Positions 12,084-17,201 of a DNA stretch of 22,793 nucleotides are shown in pieces; positions within the stretch are counted from its first letter, which is position 1; the number at the start of each line of letters is the position of its first letter. Under the pieces are notes generated by a model. The model did no database searches. It was not told where the DNA came from and saw nothing but the letters and a program-made list of their open reading frames with translations. The stretch is from positions 1 to 22,793 of the IMG/VR virus record IMGVR_UViG_3300029258_003118; one strand, written 5' to 3'. The DNA is from a virus. The position numbers and the translations under genes were made by a program.

Positions 12084-13274
12084 CTATCTTGGATTATTGG
12101 CCCCGCAGCTGGGGCAAGCGCCTTTCGCCGGGATCTCAGCCATGCAAAACCGGCATCTTGCCTTCGAAGCGGCTGGCTTCCCTTTGGTAGAATCCGGCCT
12201 CTTGACCGCGCCGGCCGGGGCCGCTTTCTTTTTCTGGGCCGGTTTCGGCGCCCTCCCCTTGGCCAGGGCCTCGGCGAATTTCGGATCCTTCCCAGCTGGC
12301 GCCGGCCGTTTCGCCATGGCATCCTTGGCCTGGGCCTGCATTTCCGCGTCGGTTGGGTCCTTATACAGGCCGGCCGCTTCCAGATCGTCCCCGGCGATGT
12401 CGTCCCCGACGACTTCCGGAAGTGCCTCGAGCCCATCCGGGCCCTCCAGGATCTCGCCCTCTATTTCCTCCCCCCGGCTGTCGACCAGTTCAATCTGCAG
12501 TTTTCCGTCCTTCATGGCGCTGGGGATATCGATCTCCCTGGCGTCCCGCCAGTTCTCCGGATCCATGTTTTTGAGATAAAACGCGATGGCCGAAACCTCC
12601 GGGGCCAGGGTCTTGACCTTTTCCTCCGCCAGGATCCGCCGCCCCTGTTTTATGACCTTCCCGGACTTGTCCAGTTCTGGGGCAACGATGATAAATTTTC
12701 TTTCCAGGGTTTCGAATCCGTTGGCCCGATCGTGCAGGCTGCGGACCGTTTTCTGCAGGGCCGCCTCCCGGCCCCTTTTTATTGTGTAACAAAAAGCCGG
12801 GTATTTCCGGGACCATCGATTCAATGTCATTCTGGAAACGCCCCAGAGATCGGCTATTTTCTGCATGGTGAATCCCAGGCCGGCCAGGGCCTCGGCTTCC
12901 TTGAACATAAAATCCCGAAAAAGTGTCTTTCGTCCTTTCTTCCTGTACTCTTCCCCCTCCGACCTCGCCAGTTTAATCAGGGCCGCAGCGTGCCTTTCGT
13001 CTATGGGGTATTTTGAAAGCTCCAGTAATTCCTTTTCCCTTTTCTTCCGGGCCCTCTCTCTCGCTTCCCTCTCCCGCCGTCTTTTTAAGGCTGCCGCCTT
13101 TTTCCTTTTCTCGGCCGCGGCCTTCCTCTCCGCAGCCGTCATTTTCTTCCGGGCCGGCTTTTTCGCAGGGGGCTTTTTCCCCTGGGCCGTTTTCTCTGCC
13201 GGCGCCTTCGGCGCTGCGGTGTCGGCCGGTTTTTTTTTGGGCGGCCGCCCCCTTCTCTTTGGCGTTGTTGTCAA
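12084..13274 (-). CDS. Small-terminase-like DNA-binding protein with AT-hook and zinc ribbon (396 aa)
   Basis: Residues about 120-250 carry the layout I associate with phage small-terminase or HTH proteins: EAEALAGLGFTMQKIADLWGVSRMTLNRWSRKYPAF (HTH at about 134-156), IKRGREAALQKTVRSLHDRANGFE, and a final SAIAFYLKNMDPENWRD, which matches the FWLKNRxPxxWRD end of that family. The small terminase binds the packaging site and hands DNA to TerL. Unusual additions are an N-terminal AT-hook (KRRGRPPKK) with about 75 Lys/Ala/Arg-rich residues, and a C-terminal tail ending in a four-Cys ribbon (CRFC and CPSC). The start is TTG at 13274, overlapping the methyltransferase stop, with GGAGG six bases upstream. 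It lies about 5.4 kb from terL rather than beside it. Confidence 0.75.
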   Translation of the reverse strand: MTTTPKRRGRPPKKKPADTAAPKAPAEKTAQGKKPPAKKPARKKMTAAERKAAAEKRKKAAALKRRREREARERARKKREKELLELSKYPIDERHAAALIKLARSEGEEYRKKGRKTLFRDFMFKEAEALAGLGFTMQKIADLWGVSRMTLNRWSRKYPAFCYTIKRGREAALQKTVRSLHDRANGFETLERKFIIVAPELDKSGKVIKQGRRILAEEKVKTLAPEVSAIAFYLKNMDPENWRDAREIDIPSAMKDGKLQIELVDSRGEEIEGEILEGPDGLEALPEVVGDDIAGDDLEAAGLYKDPTDAEMQAQAKDAMAKRPAPAGKDPKFAEALAKGRAPKPAQKKKAAPAGAVKRPDSTKGKPAASKARCRFCMAEIPAKGACPSCGANNPR

Positions 13275-14365
13275 GATATCCTCCAATGCTCAATCAGTTT
13301 TATTTTTTCTATTATTTCATACGCCACCTGGGGCACTATCGCGTTTCCAAGGGCTTTAAGTCGGTCCACCCGATTGGGAACCCCATCAGATATTCGACAA
13401 AGGCGGGTTGCAACTTCAGACCAGGGCGTTTCCCAACTTTCGTCTGTAGATTTTCCCCACCTTCCCGCCCCTGCGTCCCCGGTCCCGTCGAGCATGAGGC
13501 GTGCGGCGTTGGGAGCATTTTGACGGCCGCATGAACCGAGTCCGCCTTGCCTCGATGCCGTCCCGCATCGAACCCTTCCATTCGTGGAGTCGGGATCATC
13601 TTGTTCAGATCGTGAATATCCGTTCTCAGACTCCGGCCCTGCCCGCCGCCCGTCGCTCCCTTGCAATCCCATGAGGCTGGAGTTGCTGCCATCTGCGGCA
13701 ATAATCCAGACTCGGTATCGCCGATGATCGGCTCCAACTGCCGAAGCCGGAACAATAACCGGGATGACCTCGTAACCGATTTTCTCAAAGTCTTCACAGA
13801 ATGAATTGAGCAACATTCTCTCTTGTCGTGTGAATACTGCCGCATAAAAGTCGTGGTCCTCGTCTCTGGTAATTGTTCGAACGTCCATTCGAAGTTCACC
13901 AATTTGTTGCCCCATCGAGGTGAGGCCAGCAACATTTTCACTAACGACCCAACGGGGCCGGGCTTCTTTAATAACGCGCAACATTTCCGGCCAGAGGAAG
14001 CGGTTATCCTCCGTGCCTCCCCGCTTCCCGGCAACGCTGAAAGGCTGGCAGGGGAAGCCCCCGGTAAGGAGAGCTGCCCCCCGGTATCGGGTGCCGTCGA
14101 AGTCTCGGATATCGGGGATGACTGGGATTCCAATGTTTCGTTCAGCGGCCGCGAATTCTTCGCCATTGTCTCTATCGACGCCTTCCCGCTTCTCCAGTCC
14201 CGGGATGTTGGCGTCGGCAACAACCGCCCCGAATCTCGCCTCAAGCACCCGCTGGCAGTATTCGTCTTTTTCGCAGAATGCGACCGTTTGGAATCCCGCC
14301 CATTGTGCGGCGAGCGCGAATCCGCCGACCCCAGAAAAAATGTCGACATGCTCAAGACCCTCCAA
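13271..14365 (-). CDS. DNA cytosine-5 methyltransferase (364 aa)
   Basis: The enzyme moves a methyl group from SAM to C5 of cytosine. Motif I is DIFSGVGGFALAA at about 8-20, motif IV GGFPCQPFS with catalytic Cys106, motif VI ENV at 143-145, motif VIII HRRYRVWI at 214-221, and motif X LKALGNAIVPQVAYEII near residue 340. All key residues are present. The part between VIII and X, where the target-recognition domain should be, is oddly Gly/Ser/Asp/Arg-rich (RAGPESENGYSRSEQDDPDS). I use the TTG at 14365, just after the upstream TAA; no better start exists in this frame and its ribosome-binding site is weak. A second long frame (13336-14349) covers almost the same DNA. The likely role is protection from host restriction. 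Confidence 0.9.
   Translation of the reverse strand: MEGLEHVDIFSGVGGFALAAQWAGFQTVAFCEKDEYCQRVLEARFGAVVADANIPGLEKREGVDRDNGEEFAAAERNIGIPVIPDIRDFDGTRYRGAALLTGGFPCQPFSVAGKRGGTEDNRFLWPEMLRVIKEARPRWVVSENVAGLTSMGQQIGELRMDVRTITRDEDHDFYAAVFTRQERMLLNSFCEDFEKIGYEVIPVIVPASAVGADHRRYRVWIIAADGSNSSLMGLQGSDGRRAGPESENGYSRSEQDDPDSTNGRVRCGTASRQGGLGSCGRQNAPNAARLMLDGTGDAGAGRWGKSTDESWETPWSEVATRLCRISDGVPNRVDRLKALGNAIVPQVAYEIIEKIKLIEHWRIS
13336..14349 (-). CDS. Second long open frame overprinting the cytosine methyltransferase (337 aa)
   Basis: This frame runs inside the methyltransferase gene on the same strand. Its ATG at 14349 has GGAGGG eight bases upstream, a better initiation signal than the methyltransferase's own TTG. 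The product contains LLPTPTSRDWRSGKAS, SRLLFRLRQLEP, FDAGRHRGKADSVHAAVKM, MLPTP and the C-terminal FVEYLMGFPIGWTDLKPLE. I recognise these from uncharacterised proteins of phage and metagenome origin that accompany cytosine methyltransferases. It may be a genuine dual-coded protein, or those database proteins may be mistranslations of the methyltransferase frame. I cannot decide from one sequence, so confidence that it is translated is modest. Confidence 0.35.
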   Translation of the reverse strand: MSTFFLGSADSRSPHNGRDSKRSHSAKKTNTASGCLRRDSGRLLPTPTSRDWRSGKASIETMAKNSRPLNETLESQSSPISETSTAPDTGGQLSLPGASPASLSALPGSGEARRITASSGRKCCALLKKPGPVGSLVKMLLASPRWGNKLVNFEWTFEQLPETRTTTFMRQYSHDKRECCSIHSVKTLRKSVTRSSRLLFRLRQLEPIIGDTESGLLPQMAATPASWDCKGATGGGQGRSLRTDIHDLNKMIPTPRMEGFDAGRHRGKADSVHAAVKMLPTPHASCSTGPGTQGREGGENLQTKVGKRPGLKLQPAFVEYLMGFPIGWTDLKPLETR

Positions 14366-15349
14366 TTATTTCTGATATCCCTTCCGCGGCGTCTTCCGCG
14401 TATAGTCAAAAATCCAGGGCCGGGTTTCCGCCAGGGCCGTCAGGCCGCCGGCTTTCTCGACCGCGGGCACAATTCGATTTATCGGCTGGTCGTGTTTGAT
14501 GGCCAGGATTATCAGCCCCCCGCCCCAATCGACCATAAACCGGCGCCAGGCTTCCGGCCAGGTCCTCCGCAGGACCCGGTATTTGCTCCCGAAAAATTGG
14601 GATCCGCCCCCGCAATAAACGCAGCCGATGGTGTCCGCGCCGCGGGCCCGGGCTGGGTGTTCGGGGATCTTGGCCCGGCGCTTGTATTCCCGGATATCGG
14701 CATCCGTCCATCCGTCCAGGGGGTTGGCGATCCAGATTTTATCCTGTTTGTTGAAAAATATCCGGCCGTCCTTCCGGGCCCGGGTCCCCCGCAGGGCGTC
14801 GTCAGAATCCCCCCGCTGGCCGGTGATCTGACAGCTGGCGCCGGCGTTCTTTGTCATCTGCCGGCCGGGGACGATTTTCATATTTCGACAGCAGGATGAA
14901 CAGTCGACCCGGAAACCAAAACCCGCGTGCCCTTGCATCCATATCCGGGCCGGCCGCTTCCCCAGCATGGGCCATCCGTGCCGGCGCCATTGTTCCGTTG
15001 GGGTCCGGGCCGCCCGGGCGACCCTCAGCCGCATCCCCAGGCTGTCGACAAACCCCCGGACGAATGCTTCCGTTTCCGGATATTCCATTTGACTGTCGAC
15101 CCAAACGACCTCCGCATCCGGCCGGACGCCGGCGGTCAGCTGCAGGGCGACGGATGAATCCCCGCCGCCTGAAAACGCGACGACCAGGCGCCAGGCCTTC
15201 CGGGCCGCCTGCCGGATCGTTTGCCGGGCCGTATCAATCTTTTTGTCCAGGCCCGGGGCCAGGCCCTCCGCTTCCTGGGCTGGCTTCGGCGGCTCTGGGA
15301 TCTCTTCCTCGGCCAGGATCGCATCGGCCAGATCTGAAATATCGATCAT
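14366..15349 (-). CDS. PAPS-reductase-like/DndC-like PP-loop protein (327 aa)
   Basis: The PP-loop is VVAFSGGGDSSVAL with SGGGDSS at 60-66, the classic SGGxDS of PAPS reductase, DndC and related ATP pyrophosphatases. VVWVDSQMEYPET is the second conserved segment. Cysteines cluster at 150, 153 and 154 (DCSSCCR), 173, and 243/246 (CVYCGG), a plausible Fe-S or zinc site. The N-terminal 40 residues are acidic and probably flexible. The gene overlaps the ParB-methyltransferase stop as ATGA. A PP-loop protein paired with a ParB-domain protein resembles the IbrA/IbrB pair and phage modification loci, so the two probably act together on nucleic acid. The reaction is not known; the sequence does not show which atom is transferred. 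Confidence 0.87.
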   Translation of the reverse strand: MIDISDLADAILAEEEIPEPPKPAQEAEGLAPGLDKKIDTARQTIRQAARKAWRLVVAFSGGGDSSVALQLTAGVRPDAEVVWVDSQMEYPETEAFVRGFVDSLGMRLRVARAARTPTEQWRRHGWPMLGKRPARIWMQGHAGFGFRVDCSSCCRNMKIVPGRQMTKNAGASCQITGQRGDSDDALRGTRARKDGRIFFNKQDKIWIANPLDGWTDADIREYKRRAKIPEHPARARGADTIGCVYCGGGSQFFGSKYRVLRRTWPEAWRRFMVDWGGGLIILAIKHDQPINRIVPAVEKAGGLTALAETRPWIFDYTRKTPRKGYQK

Positions 15350-16665
15350 TTTCCCCCGTCTTTCCGGGCCGGCTTCGGCCTGACGTTCTTTCGAGTCGCC
15401 CGGATCTCTTCCTCCGTCGCGCCCCCGCCGGCCGCGTATCGGCGGATTATGACATCGGCAAATATCGGATCCTTTTCGATGATCCGGGCCCGCCGGCCCT
15501 CCCGATCCGACCCTATTAAGGCCGTCCCGCTGCCGCCGAATGGATCCAGGACCAGGTCGCCGGGCTTCGATGAATTTTGAATAAACCGCTGGAAAAGCCC
15601 CAGGGGTTTCTGTTCCGGATGAATCGATTTTCTGGCCGGGATCGGCGGGACCTCGAGGATATCCGCCTCAAATCGCTGGTCCTGGAAATAATGCTTCCCG
15701 CCATTCCATCCGTAAAGGATCGGCTGTCCGGCCCTCTTCCCCGTTCTCCCGATTATCGCCTGTCCGTGCCTGGCCTTGTAATCCCCCGGGCTGATCCCGG
15801 CGCCGGCCTTGATCCAAACCAGGACCGCATCCGGGACAAAGCCGGCTTTTCGGATAGCATATAGAAAAATCGGATAGGTTGGGAATCCCGCGCATAGGTA
15901 GAAAGCGGCCCCCTTCCGGACGTTTTCGGCCATCCTGTCAACGGCTGCGATCGAAAATTCAATAAACTGATCGTCCGTCATGGCGCCGGCCGGGCCTGGG
16001 CCGTCGATGTTGGTCGGCGGATCCGTTAGGATCAGGTCGGCCTTTTCCCCTTCCATGATCGCCTCGTATGGCCAGGCTTCGGTCGCGTCCCCGCATATAA
16101 GGCGATGATCGCCCAGGTCGAACATGTCCCCCGGCTTGGAAACCGGGTCGACCTCCGGCGCTGGGATTTCGTCCTCTTCGATCAGCATGGGGCCGGGCCC
16201 GAATTTTTCTACAATGGCATCAAGGGGGGTCTGCTCTTTTGTGTCGATCGCGTACTCGGAAAGCGGAATCTCTTCCTTGTATGGATCGACCAGCTCCGCG
16301 ACCGCCTGGTCGTCGTATTCCCCGAACCGTTGATTTGCCCGCAGGGCCAGGCGGATCCGCTCCGCTTCGTTTTCTGGAAAATTCAGGCTGATCTGGATCT
16401 TGACGTCCGGCTTGTATTTCAGCCGGTGCCGCATCGCCTGATATCGCATATTCCCGCCGCCGGTCTGATATCGGCCCGTATCCTCCGCCGGATATTCCCC
16501 GTATTCCCCCCCCGCCGGCCAGCAGACCAGGTTTTCAAATTGGCCCAGCTCTTCCAGGCTGGCGGCCAGGGCGTCAAGCTTTTCCTCTTTTATCCGCCTT
16601 GGGTTCTGGCCCCATGGCTCGATCTTGTCAAACCGGACCTTTTTAAAAATCGGCTTTCTATGCAT
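15346..16665 (-). CDS. ParB-like/DNA methyltransferase fusion with altered DPPY motif (439 aa)
   Basis: Residues about 8-125 are a ParB/sulfiredoxin-like domain (VRFDKIEPWGQNPRRI, LEELGQFENLVCWP, LRANQRFGEYDD). Residues about 175-410 are an N6-adenine/N4-cytosine methyltransferase of the beta order: motif IV first (LILTDPPTNID, 212-221), then the target-site region, then the SAM-binding motif (VLDPFGGSGTALIG, 372-384). Family members read DPPY at motif IV; here the codon at 16012-16014 gives Thr218. The Tyr stacks on the flipped base, so Thr may weaken or change catalysis. The start at 16665 overlaps the upstream stop as TGATG. It forms a tight pair with the downstream PP-loop gene. DNA modification or self-protection is the likely role. 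Confidence 0.88.
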   Translation of the reverse strand: MHRKPIFKKVRFDKIEPWGQNPRRIKEEKLDALAASLEELGQFENLVCWPAGGEYGEYPAEDTGRYQTGGGNMRYQAMRHRLKYKPDVKIQISLNFPENEAERIRLALRANQRFGEYDDQAVAELVDPYKEEIPLSEYAIDTKEQTPLDAIVEKFGPGPMLIEEDEIPAPEVDPVSKPGDMFDLGDHRLICGDATEAWPYEAIMEGEKADLILTDPPTNIDGPGPAGAMTDDQFIEFSIAAVDRMAENVRKGAAFYLCAGFPTYPIFLYAIRKAGFVPDAVLVWIKAGAGISPGDYKARHGQAIIGRTGKRAGQPILYGWNGGKHYFQDQRFEADILEVPPIPARKSIHPEQKPLGLFQRFIQNSSKPGDLVLDPFGGSGTALIGSDREGRRARIIEKDPIFADVIIRRYAAGGGATEEEIRATRKNVRPKPARKDGGK

Positions 16666-17201
16666 CAGGTCCCCGTTTTTGATTTCCCGTTTCTGGCCAT
16701 GGTTAAAATATGCTCGGCGTTGGCTTTCACTCCAGCATGGGCCGCCTCGATCCGCGTTTCGAATTGCTTGACCGTGGCCTCGCATCTGGAATTTATCCCA
16801 GATATTCCCTTTTCAATTTCCCCTATAGACCGGGTCTGCTCTGACTGCGCCCGCTGGATTGACCCGATCGCGCTGGTGGAAATCGCGCTGTCTCTTTTGA
16901 TCTTATCAACGACGACCCGGATTTCCGTCAGGTGGCCGTTCTTTGTCTTGAAATCCCGGGATTTCTTCAATTCCCGGATCCATATCGGAACATTGGCCAC
17001 AAAAACAATAATAGCGGTATAAACGACCCCCGGCCAGGTTGTCGGGGTTTCTTCCGGTTGCCCAGGGATCCGGTCGATGGCGGCCGGCTGTCCGGCCTCC
17101 TCCTGGGTCCGCGGTCGGCTGCTGGCGACCGTGAAAATCAAAAGTCCGGCCAAAAGGCCGGCGGCGAATAGGGCGAAAACCGCCCGGCGCCTCTTTATCA
17201 T
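16665..17201 (-). CDS. Membrane protein with coiled-coil tail (178 aa)
   Basis: The ATG at 17201 overlaps the upstream stop as ATGA. There is a signal-like or TM segment at about residues 8-26 (FALFAAGLLAGLLIFTVASS), a Pro-rich linker, a second hydrophobic stretch at about 56-75 (WPGVVYTAIIVFVANVPIWI), and then about 90 residues of heptad-like sequence (IRVVVDKIKRDSAISTSAIGSIQRAQ) reaching the C-terminus. This resembles phage lysis accessory proteins with membrane anchors and coiled coils, such as spanin or hemolysin-XhlA-like proteins. It follows the peptidase gene, which supports a lysis role, but no family-specific motif is visible. Confidence 0.65.
   Translation of the reverse strand: MIKRRRAVFALFAAGLLAGLLIFTVASSRPRTQEEAGQPAAIDRIPGQPEETPTTWPGVVYTAIIVFVANVPIWIRELKKSRDFKTKNGHLTEIRVVVDKIKRDSAISTSAIGSIQRAQSEQTRSIGEIEKGISGINSRCEATVKQFETRIEAAHAGVKANAEHILTMARNGKSKTGT

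Follow-up and report, generated by a model that had tools for sequence, protein, structure and literature searches.

A nested reading frame in a phage cytosine methyltransferase gene: a probable two-polypeptide enzyme encoded by one stretch of DNA

A cytosine methyltransferase gene on the minus strand of IMG/VR virus record IMGVR_UViG_3300029258_003118 encloses a second long open reading frame, which raises the question of whether this inner frame is a by-product of the outer gene or encodes a protein of its own and, if so, what that protein could do. The whole stretch of DNA analysed, 22,793 nucleotides in length, is called the window here, and the outer and inner frames are called alpha and beta. 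The original prediction placed a 337-codon frame, with an ATG at 14349 and a GGAGGG ribosome-binding site, inside a 364-codon methyltransferase having a TTG start and a weak site; these coordinates are confirmed, and all of the peptides quoted for the second frame are present. The best explanation, to which we assign a probability of about 0.83, is that this one stretch of DNA encodes an M.EcoHK31I-type m5C methyltransferase made of two polypeptides. This model draws directly on the open reading frames and how well they are conserved, on selection acting in both frames, on ribosome-binding sites, on the split of motifs between the frames, and on a single-chain equivalent in which the parts are in frame.

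Alpha belongs to the m5C DNA methyltransferases (PF00145), with motifs I, IV (PCQ), VI (ENV), VIII, and X. The features of this frame and of the gene upstream are as follows.

13271 to 14365, minus strand: alpha, m5C DNA methyltransferase open reading frame (PF00145, 3.8e-38; phrog_363, 4e-65; HhaI similarity; alignment A2)
14318 to 14344, minus strand: alpha motif I, DIFSGVGGF
14021 to 14062, minus strand: alpha motif IV, GGFPCQPFSVAGKR, with the catalytic Cys (alignment A2)
13700 to 13726, minus strand: alpha motif VIII region, HRRYRVWII (alignment A2)
13328 to 13354, minus strand: alpha motif X, ALGNAIVPQ (alignment A2), its final third lying 3′ of the beta stop
14366 to 15349, minus strand: upstream gene, PAPS-reductase-like (phrog_424, 1.7e-24), its stop abutting the alpha TTG

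No motif IX was found in the alpha chain between motifs VIII and X in alignment A2; it is found in the +1 frame instead. The alpha stretch between these two motifs is of low complexity, a property common to the homologs in the same alignment. The TTG directly abuts the TAA (14366-14368) of the upstream gene, making translational coupling possible. The PAPS-reductase-like gene and a ParB/DNA-methyltransferase-like gene (15346-16785), both directly upstream, form a DNA-modification cluster, and the neighbours in the window include a terminase small subunit and a portal protein as well as the ParB/methyltransferase-like gene. A protein encoded at 11138-11719 matches the sulfatase-modifying-factor family (phrog_9572), whose fold is often used by diversity-generating elements.

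Beta lies entirely within alpha, in its +1 frame, and combines modules resembling a target-recognition domain (TRD), built around a PTP motif, with a C-terminal motif IX.

14358 to 14363, minus strand: GGAGGG Shine-Dalgarno site, 8 nt upstream of the beta ATG (sequence and family-wide enrichment)
13336 to 14349, minus strand: beta, nested +1-frame open reading frame with TRD-like PTP modules and motif IX (phrog_1008, 1.5e-21; alignments A1 and A6; shuffle test)
14197 to 14223, minus strand: beta PTP module in the N-terminal extension, LLPTPTSRD, without clear constraint here
13657 to 13686, minus strand: beta PTP-like module, ATPASWDCKG
13573 to 13599, minus strand: beta PTP module, MIPTPRMEG
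13492 to 13518, minus strand: beta PTP module, MLPTPHASC, whose T and P are >90% conserved (alignment A6)
13360 to 13413, minus strand: beta motif IX, LQPAFVEYLMGFPIGWTD, in which E, M, and G are invariant (105-107 homologs)

The C-terminal end of beta, LNPxWVEWLMGFPxGWT, matches motif IX of ordinary m5C methyltransferases, as exemplified by LTPRECWRLQGFPDWAF in Streptococcus phage CHPC1148, and the number of PTP modules differs between homologs from one to several. The phrog_1008 profile, which is labelled 'DNA methyltransferase' with the overlap unmentioned, matches beta across the family, and several other PHROG matches are labelled 'unknown function'. Pfam and NCBIfam gave no relevant match to beta, and neither beta nor its motif IX region matched any sequence in the PDB. 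AlphaFold models of beta alone were poor for both a short homolog and the window copy (pLDDT 64 and 57), and the short-homolog model produced no convincing match with Foldseek/VIA-align; a beta-only chain may not fold by itself.

The nested arrangement is found in hundreds of phages and prophages, usually half-annotated. Beta overlaps alpha in the +1 frame at 194 of 196 loci, comprising viral loci, genome-contig loci, and the window, the two exceptions being L035, whose contig is truncated, and L107, a tandem pair. All 26 loci of a set with genome draws among its sources are likewise nested at +1, and the +1 reading frame recurs at about 30% protein identity. Motif scans alone identified relatives encoded in 522 viral and 329 genome stretches, and beta is carried by 8 of 291 and 9 of 274 genomes drawn from two bacterial classes (~3%). 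Both frames are complete in 92 of 112 loci, nearly all of which had been chosen through alpha. Every nested beta found sits inside an alpha gene; standalone beta genes were expected, and none was found. A search for stop codons or neutral substitution in beta found neither, apart from a stop in beta alone with alpha complete (L315, 1276-1900) and an Escherichia coli prophage copy with both frames stopped near one place (L229, 1501-2262). The tandem locus (L107, 132-1952) holds two alpha/beta pairs, the second alpha being without its start region.

Most records annotate alpha only, and both frames are annotated in Paenibacillus phages Shelly and Jacopo. In Porphyromonas phage BK068099 (L340, 1679-2293), only beta is annotated, as a hypothetical protein, and the overlapping methyltransferase is missed. 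The suspicion of a systematic annotation artefact is thus partly borne out by the records, which carry alpha only, beta only, or both; the dual coding itself is supported. The uncharacterised proteins that the original prediction places near phage methyltransferases are the second frame of those very genes.

Whether the open +1 frame could arise by chance was addressed by permuting synonymous codons within alpha, with protein and codon use kept, in 1000 shuffles. The +1 frame of the window is open for 342 codons, compared to a mean longest run of 130 in the shuffles, none of which equalled it, and the +2 frame is unremarkable (p=0.63). Among 23 other loci, most +1 frames gave p<=0.001 and the +2 frame was significant in none. 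However, two of five single-chain control enzymes (Javan49 and CHPC1148) also have unusually open +1 frames, probably through conserved alpha motifs casting an open shadow, and openness alone is therefore weak evidence. The tests of constraint and of initiation are independent of frame openness.

Third codon positions of alpha are second positions of beta. In 47 independent pairs, with each locus used once, alpha third-position differences were 0.138 in the overlap versus 0.378 outside it, and the overlap value was the lower in 35 of the 37 pairs with enough codons outside (sign test, 1e-8). A division by region was made for the 31 pairs in which motif VIII was located. Differences at the first, second, and third alpha positions were.101/.046/.357 in the part 5′ of the overlap,.093/.047/.173 over motifs IV-VIII,.192/.062/.069 over the TRD-motif IX stretch, and.079/.049/.246 in the part 3′ of the beta stop. 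The codon periodicity over the TRD-motif IX stretch is inverted and equals that of beta, and 415 changes in this stretch are nonsynonymous in alpha and synonymous in beta, versus 127 of the reverse kind. It follows from this pattern that purifying selection passes from alpha to both frames, then to beta over the TRD and motif IX, and back to alpha at motif X. Testing each frame for selection in homologs, as had been proposed, thus finds both constrained, each by region.

The window copy lacks close relatives, and its homologs have diverged too far to allow a clean test of selection on it. Compared with L030, a highly diverged partner, its third-position change is lower over motifs IV-VIII (0.43 versus ~0.65), and the pair is saturated elsewhere, including the N-terminal extension of beta. 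Because of this saturation, the exact start of beta and its residues 1 to about 85 are uncertain; the true start could sit further in than the ATG at 14349.

Internal initiation is suggested by the sequences ahead of the beta start. A Shine-Dalgarno match of at least 5 nt occurs at the first beta-frame ATG in 49% of 110 loci, compared to 3.0% at later beta-frame, 8.1% at +2-frame, and 4.9% at alpha-frame control ATGs; examples within alpha are AAGGAGGTAGCAA-ATG (L014) and AAGGAGCTTAA-ATG (L016). Together with the recurring +1 frame at ~30% identity and the suppressed synonymous variation in alpha, these internal sites support the proposal of a widespread dual-coding gene.

Relatives with other layouts provide insight into what beta contributes. 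Gordonia phage Stultus gp4 is a single 461-aa chain, matched by the beta HMM at 1.7e-17, in which the PTP modules and motif IX follow motif VIII and precede motif X, all in frame. A merely partial overlap of the beta gene with alpha is seen in Arthrobacter phage ArV1 and Mycobacterium phage Firecracker, whose beta chains carry motif IX and then motif X, both in the beta frame. These layouts indicate that beta occupies the place of the target-recognition domain and motif IX. Three single-chain actinophage enzymes, Tweety gp72 (L202), Stultus gp4 (L343), and Graduation gp47 (L347), still have, in the +1 frame, a segment resembling the N-terminal part of beta, as though they had descended from the nested form or were precursors of it.

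Three other explanations deserve consideration. Alpha alone might be translated, with the +1 frame kept open through its motifs and a codon bias avoiding stops, and the 'motifs' of beta would then be alpha motifs read in the wrong frame. The similarity of the N-terminal half of beta does partly mirror conserved alpha motifs, motif IV in particular, and the two open single-chain controls fit such a shadow, but it cannot reduce alpha-synonymous change or invert the codon periodicity over the TRD-motif IX stretch. Neither the Shine-Dalgarno sites ahead of the beta ATG nor the in-frame occurrence of the same peptide in relatives with a single chain is predicted by it, and we consider it very improbable.

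Ribosomes could instead shift from the alpha to the beta frame and back, giving one chain without a separate beta subunit, which would suit the location of motifs IX and X in different frames and the single-chain forms of Stultus and Tweety. This would require two opposite shifts, and beta has its own start and ribosome-binding site; moreover, its conserved N-terminal half overlaps alpha motifs IV-VIII under dual constraint, so that frameshifting is an unlikely explanation. Equally unlikely is a translated beta with another role, for example host-protein binding, beside an alpha that is a complete enzyme by itself. The absence of a relevant Pfam or NCBIfam match and the PHROG labels of 'unknown function' agree with such a role, but alpha has no motif IX and a relaxed recognition region, in Stultus, ArV1, and Firecracker exactly this region is filled by sequence of the beta type, and nested betas were found within alpha genes only.

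For the two-polypeptide enzyme, we infer that beta is translated, that it assembles with alpha and reads the DNA sequence, and that the enzyme has an anti-restriction role. Alpha would provide SAM binding and catalysis through motifs I-VIII, as well as motif X, whereas beta, initiated in the +1 frame at ATG 14349 from a ribosome-binding site of its own, would provide the target-recognition region, with its PTP modules, and motif IX. In single-chain enzymes, motif IX holds the recognition domain in place. Both chains would assemble into one enzyme for site-specific methylation of phage DNA, most likely enabling evasion of host restriction. Judged from sequence comparisons, the hidden frame very probably supplies the DNA-target recognition part missing from alpha. 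The low complexity of the alpha recognition region, which had been ascribed to constraint from a second frame, is real and shared by the homologs, but its reason has to be corrected: recognition has very probably moved to the beta frame, where the constraint now lies.

To our knowledge, nested two-frame methyltransferases had so far been limited to one or two enzymes of bacteria. In M.EcoHK31I, a two-polypeptide m5C methyltransferase (YGGCCR), the small chain is reportedly read in a different frame within the gene for the large chain (Lee, Kam and Shaw, 1995), and beta is likewise encoded within alpha in the window. By published motif layout the two are also alike, since the large subunit of M.EcoHK31I has motifs I-VIII and X and the small subunit has motif IX only (PMC3404938). 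The published prediction for M.EcoHK31I differs in assigning the recognition domain to the large chain; in the present family, the TRD-motif IX stretch is under selection in the beta frame, and beta modules take the TRD position in Stultus. Moreover, the family of the window is phage-borne and comprises hundreds of loci. M.AquI is split linearly, with motifs I-VIII on one chain and IX-X on the second (PMC3404938); its two chains form one enzyme, as is proposed for the family of the window, but its layout differs from the nested form and is resembled by the partly overlapping genes of ArV1 and Firecracker. Chains split between motif VIII and the recognition domain, whether naturally or artificially, are known to complement each other (PMC5944983). 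Paenibacillus larvae phage gp55/gp56 ('g55 internal gene') show the same nested arrangement, annotated as two genes in some records, and neither function nor generality is stated in the Paenibacillus phage records or papers searched. The ShiLan element, an out-of-frame HNH endonuclease in a mycobacteriophage methylase (PMC11855218), is likewise a protein hidden in another frame of a phage methylase, but it is an inserted selfish endonuclease, whereas beta shows no HNH match in Pfam, PHROGs, or NCBIfam, involves no insertion, and carries a methyltransferase motif. Our literature search did not find the nested arrangement described as widespread; the kind itself is known, and the breadth of the M.EcoHK31I-type arrangement and the recognition region in beta appear undescribed.

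In a gut/rumen phage clade, an (AG)n tract of 16-31 nt separates the recognition block from the IX/X block and precedes motif IX by about 80-90 nt (L284, L285, L289, L303, L311, L330, L331, L334, L350, and L354; (CA)n in L325). Relative to the proximal block, the IX/X block of this clade occurs in each of the three phases, the IX-X spacing being fixed at 50 nt where both were located, and L323, L329, and L335 are shifted in phase without a long tract. This pattern resembles phase variation by slippage that affects both subunits together, assembly error being possible. The varying number of PTP modules resembles what serial recognition units might show. A tentative joint reading would take beta as a modular specificity cassette, together with (AG)n re-phasing of both subunits in the one clade. 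The variable PTP modules would then be serial target-recognition units gained and lost inside the overlap, phages would diversify methylation specificity in one frame while alpha merely tolerates passenger sequence, and slippage at (AG)n between the recognition and IX/X blocks would re-phase both subunits in the gut/rumen clade.

A curiosity of two enzymes thus becomes a family present across phages and in ~3% of the sampled genomes of two bacterial classes, and a stock of 'hypothetical' PTP/LMGFP proteins is explained. If the two-chain model is true, one of the two subunits required is routinely lost in annotation, and the annotated methyltransferase expressed alone would probably be inactive. 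The family also lends itself to the study of extended, strongly constrained dual coding in nature, and its evolution is testable through its single-chain, partly overlapping, and fully nested relatives.
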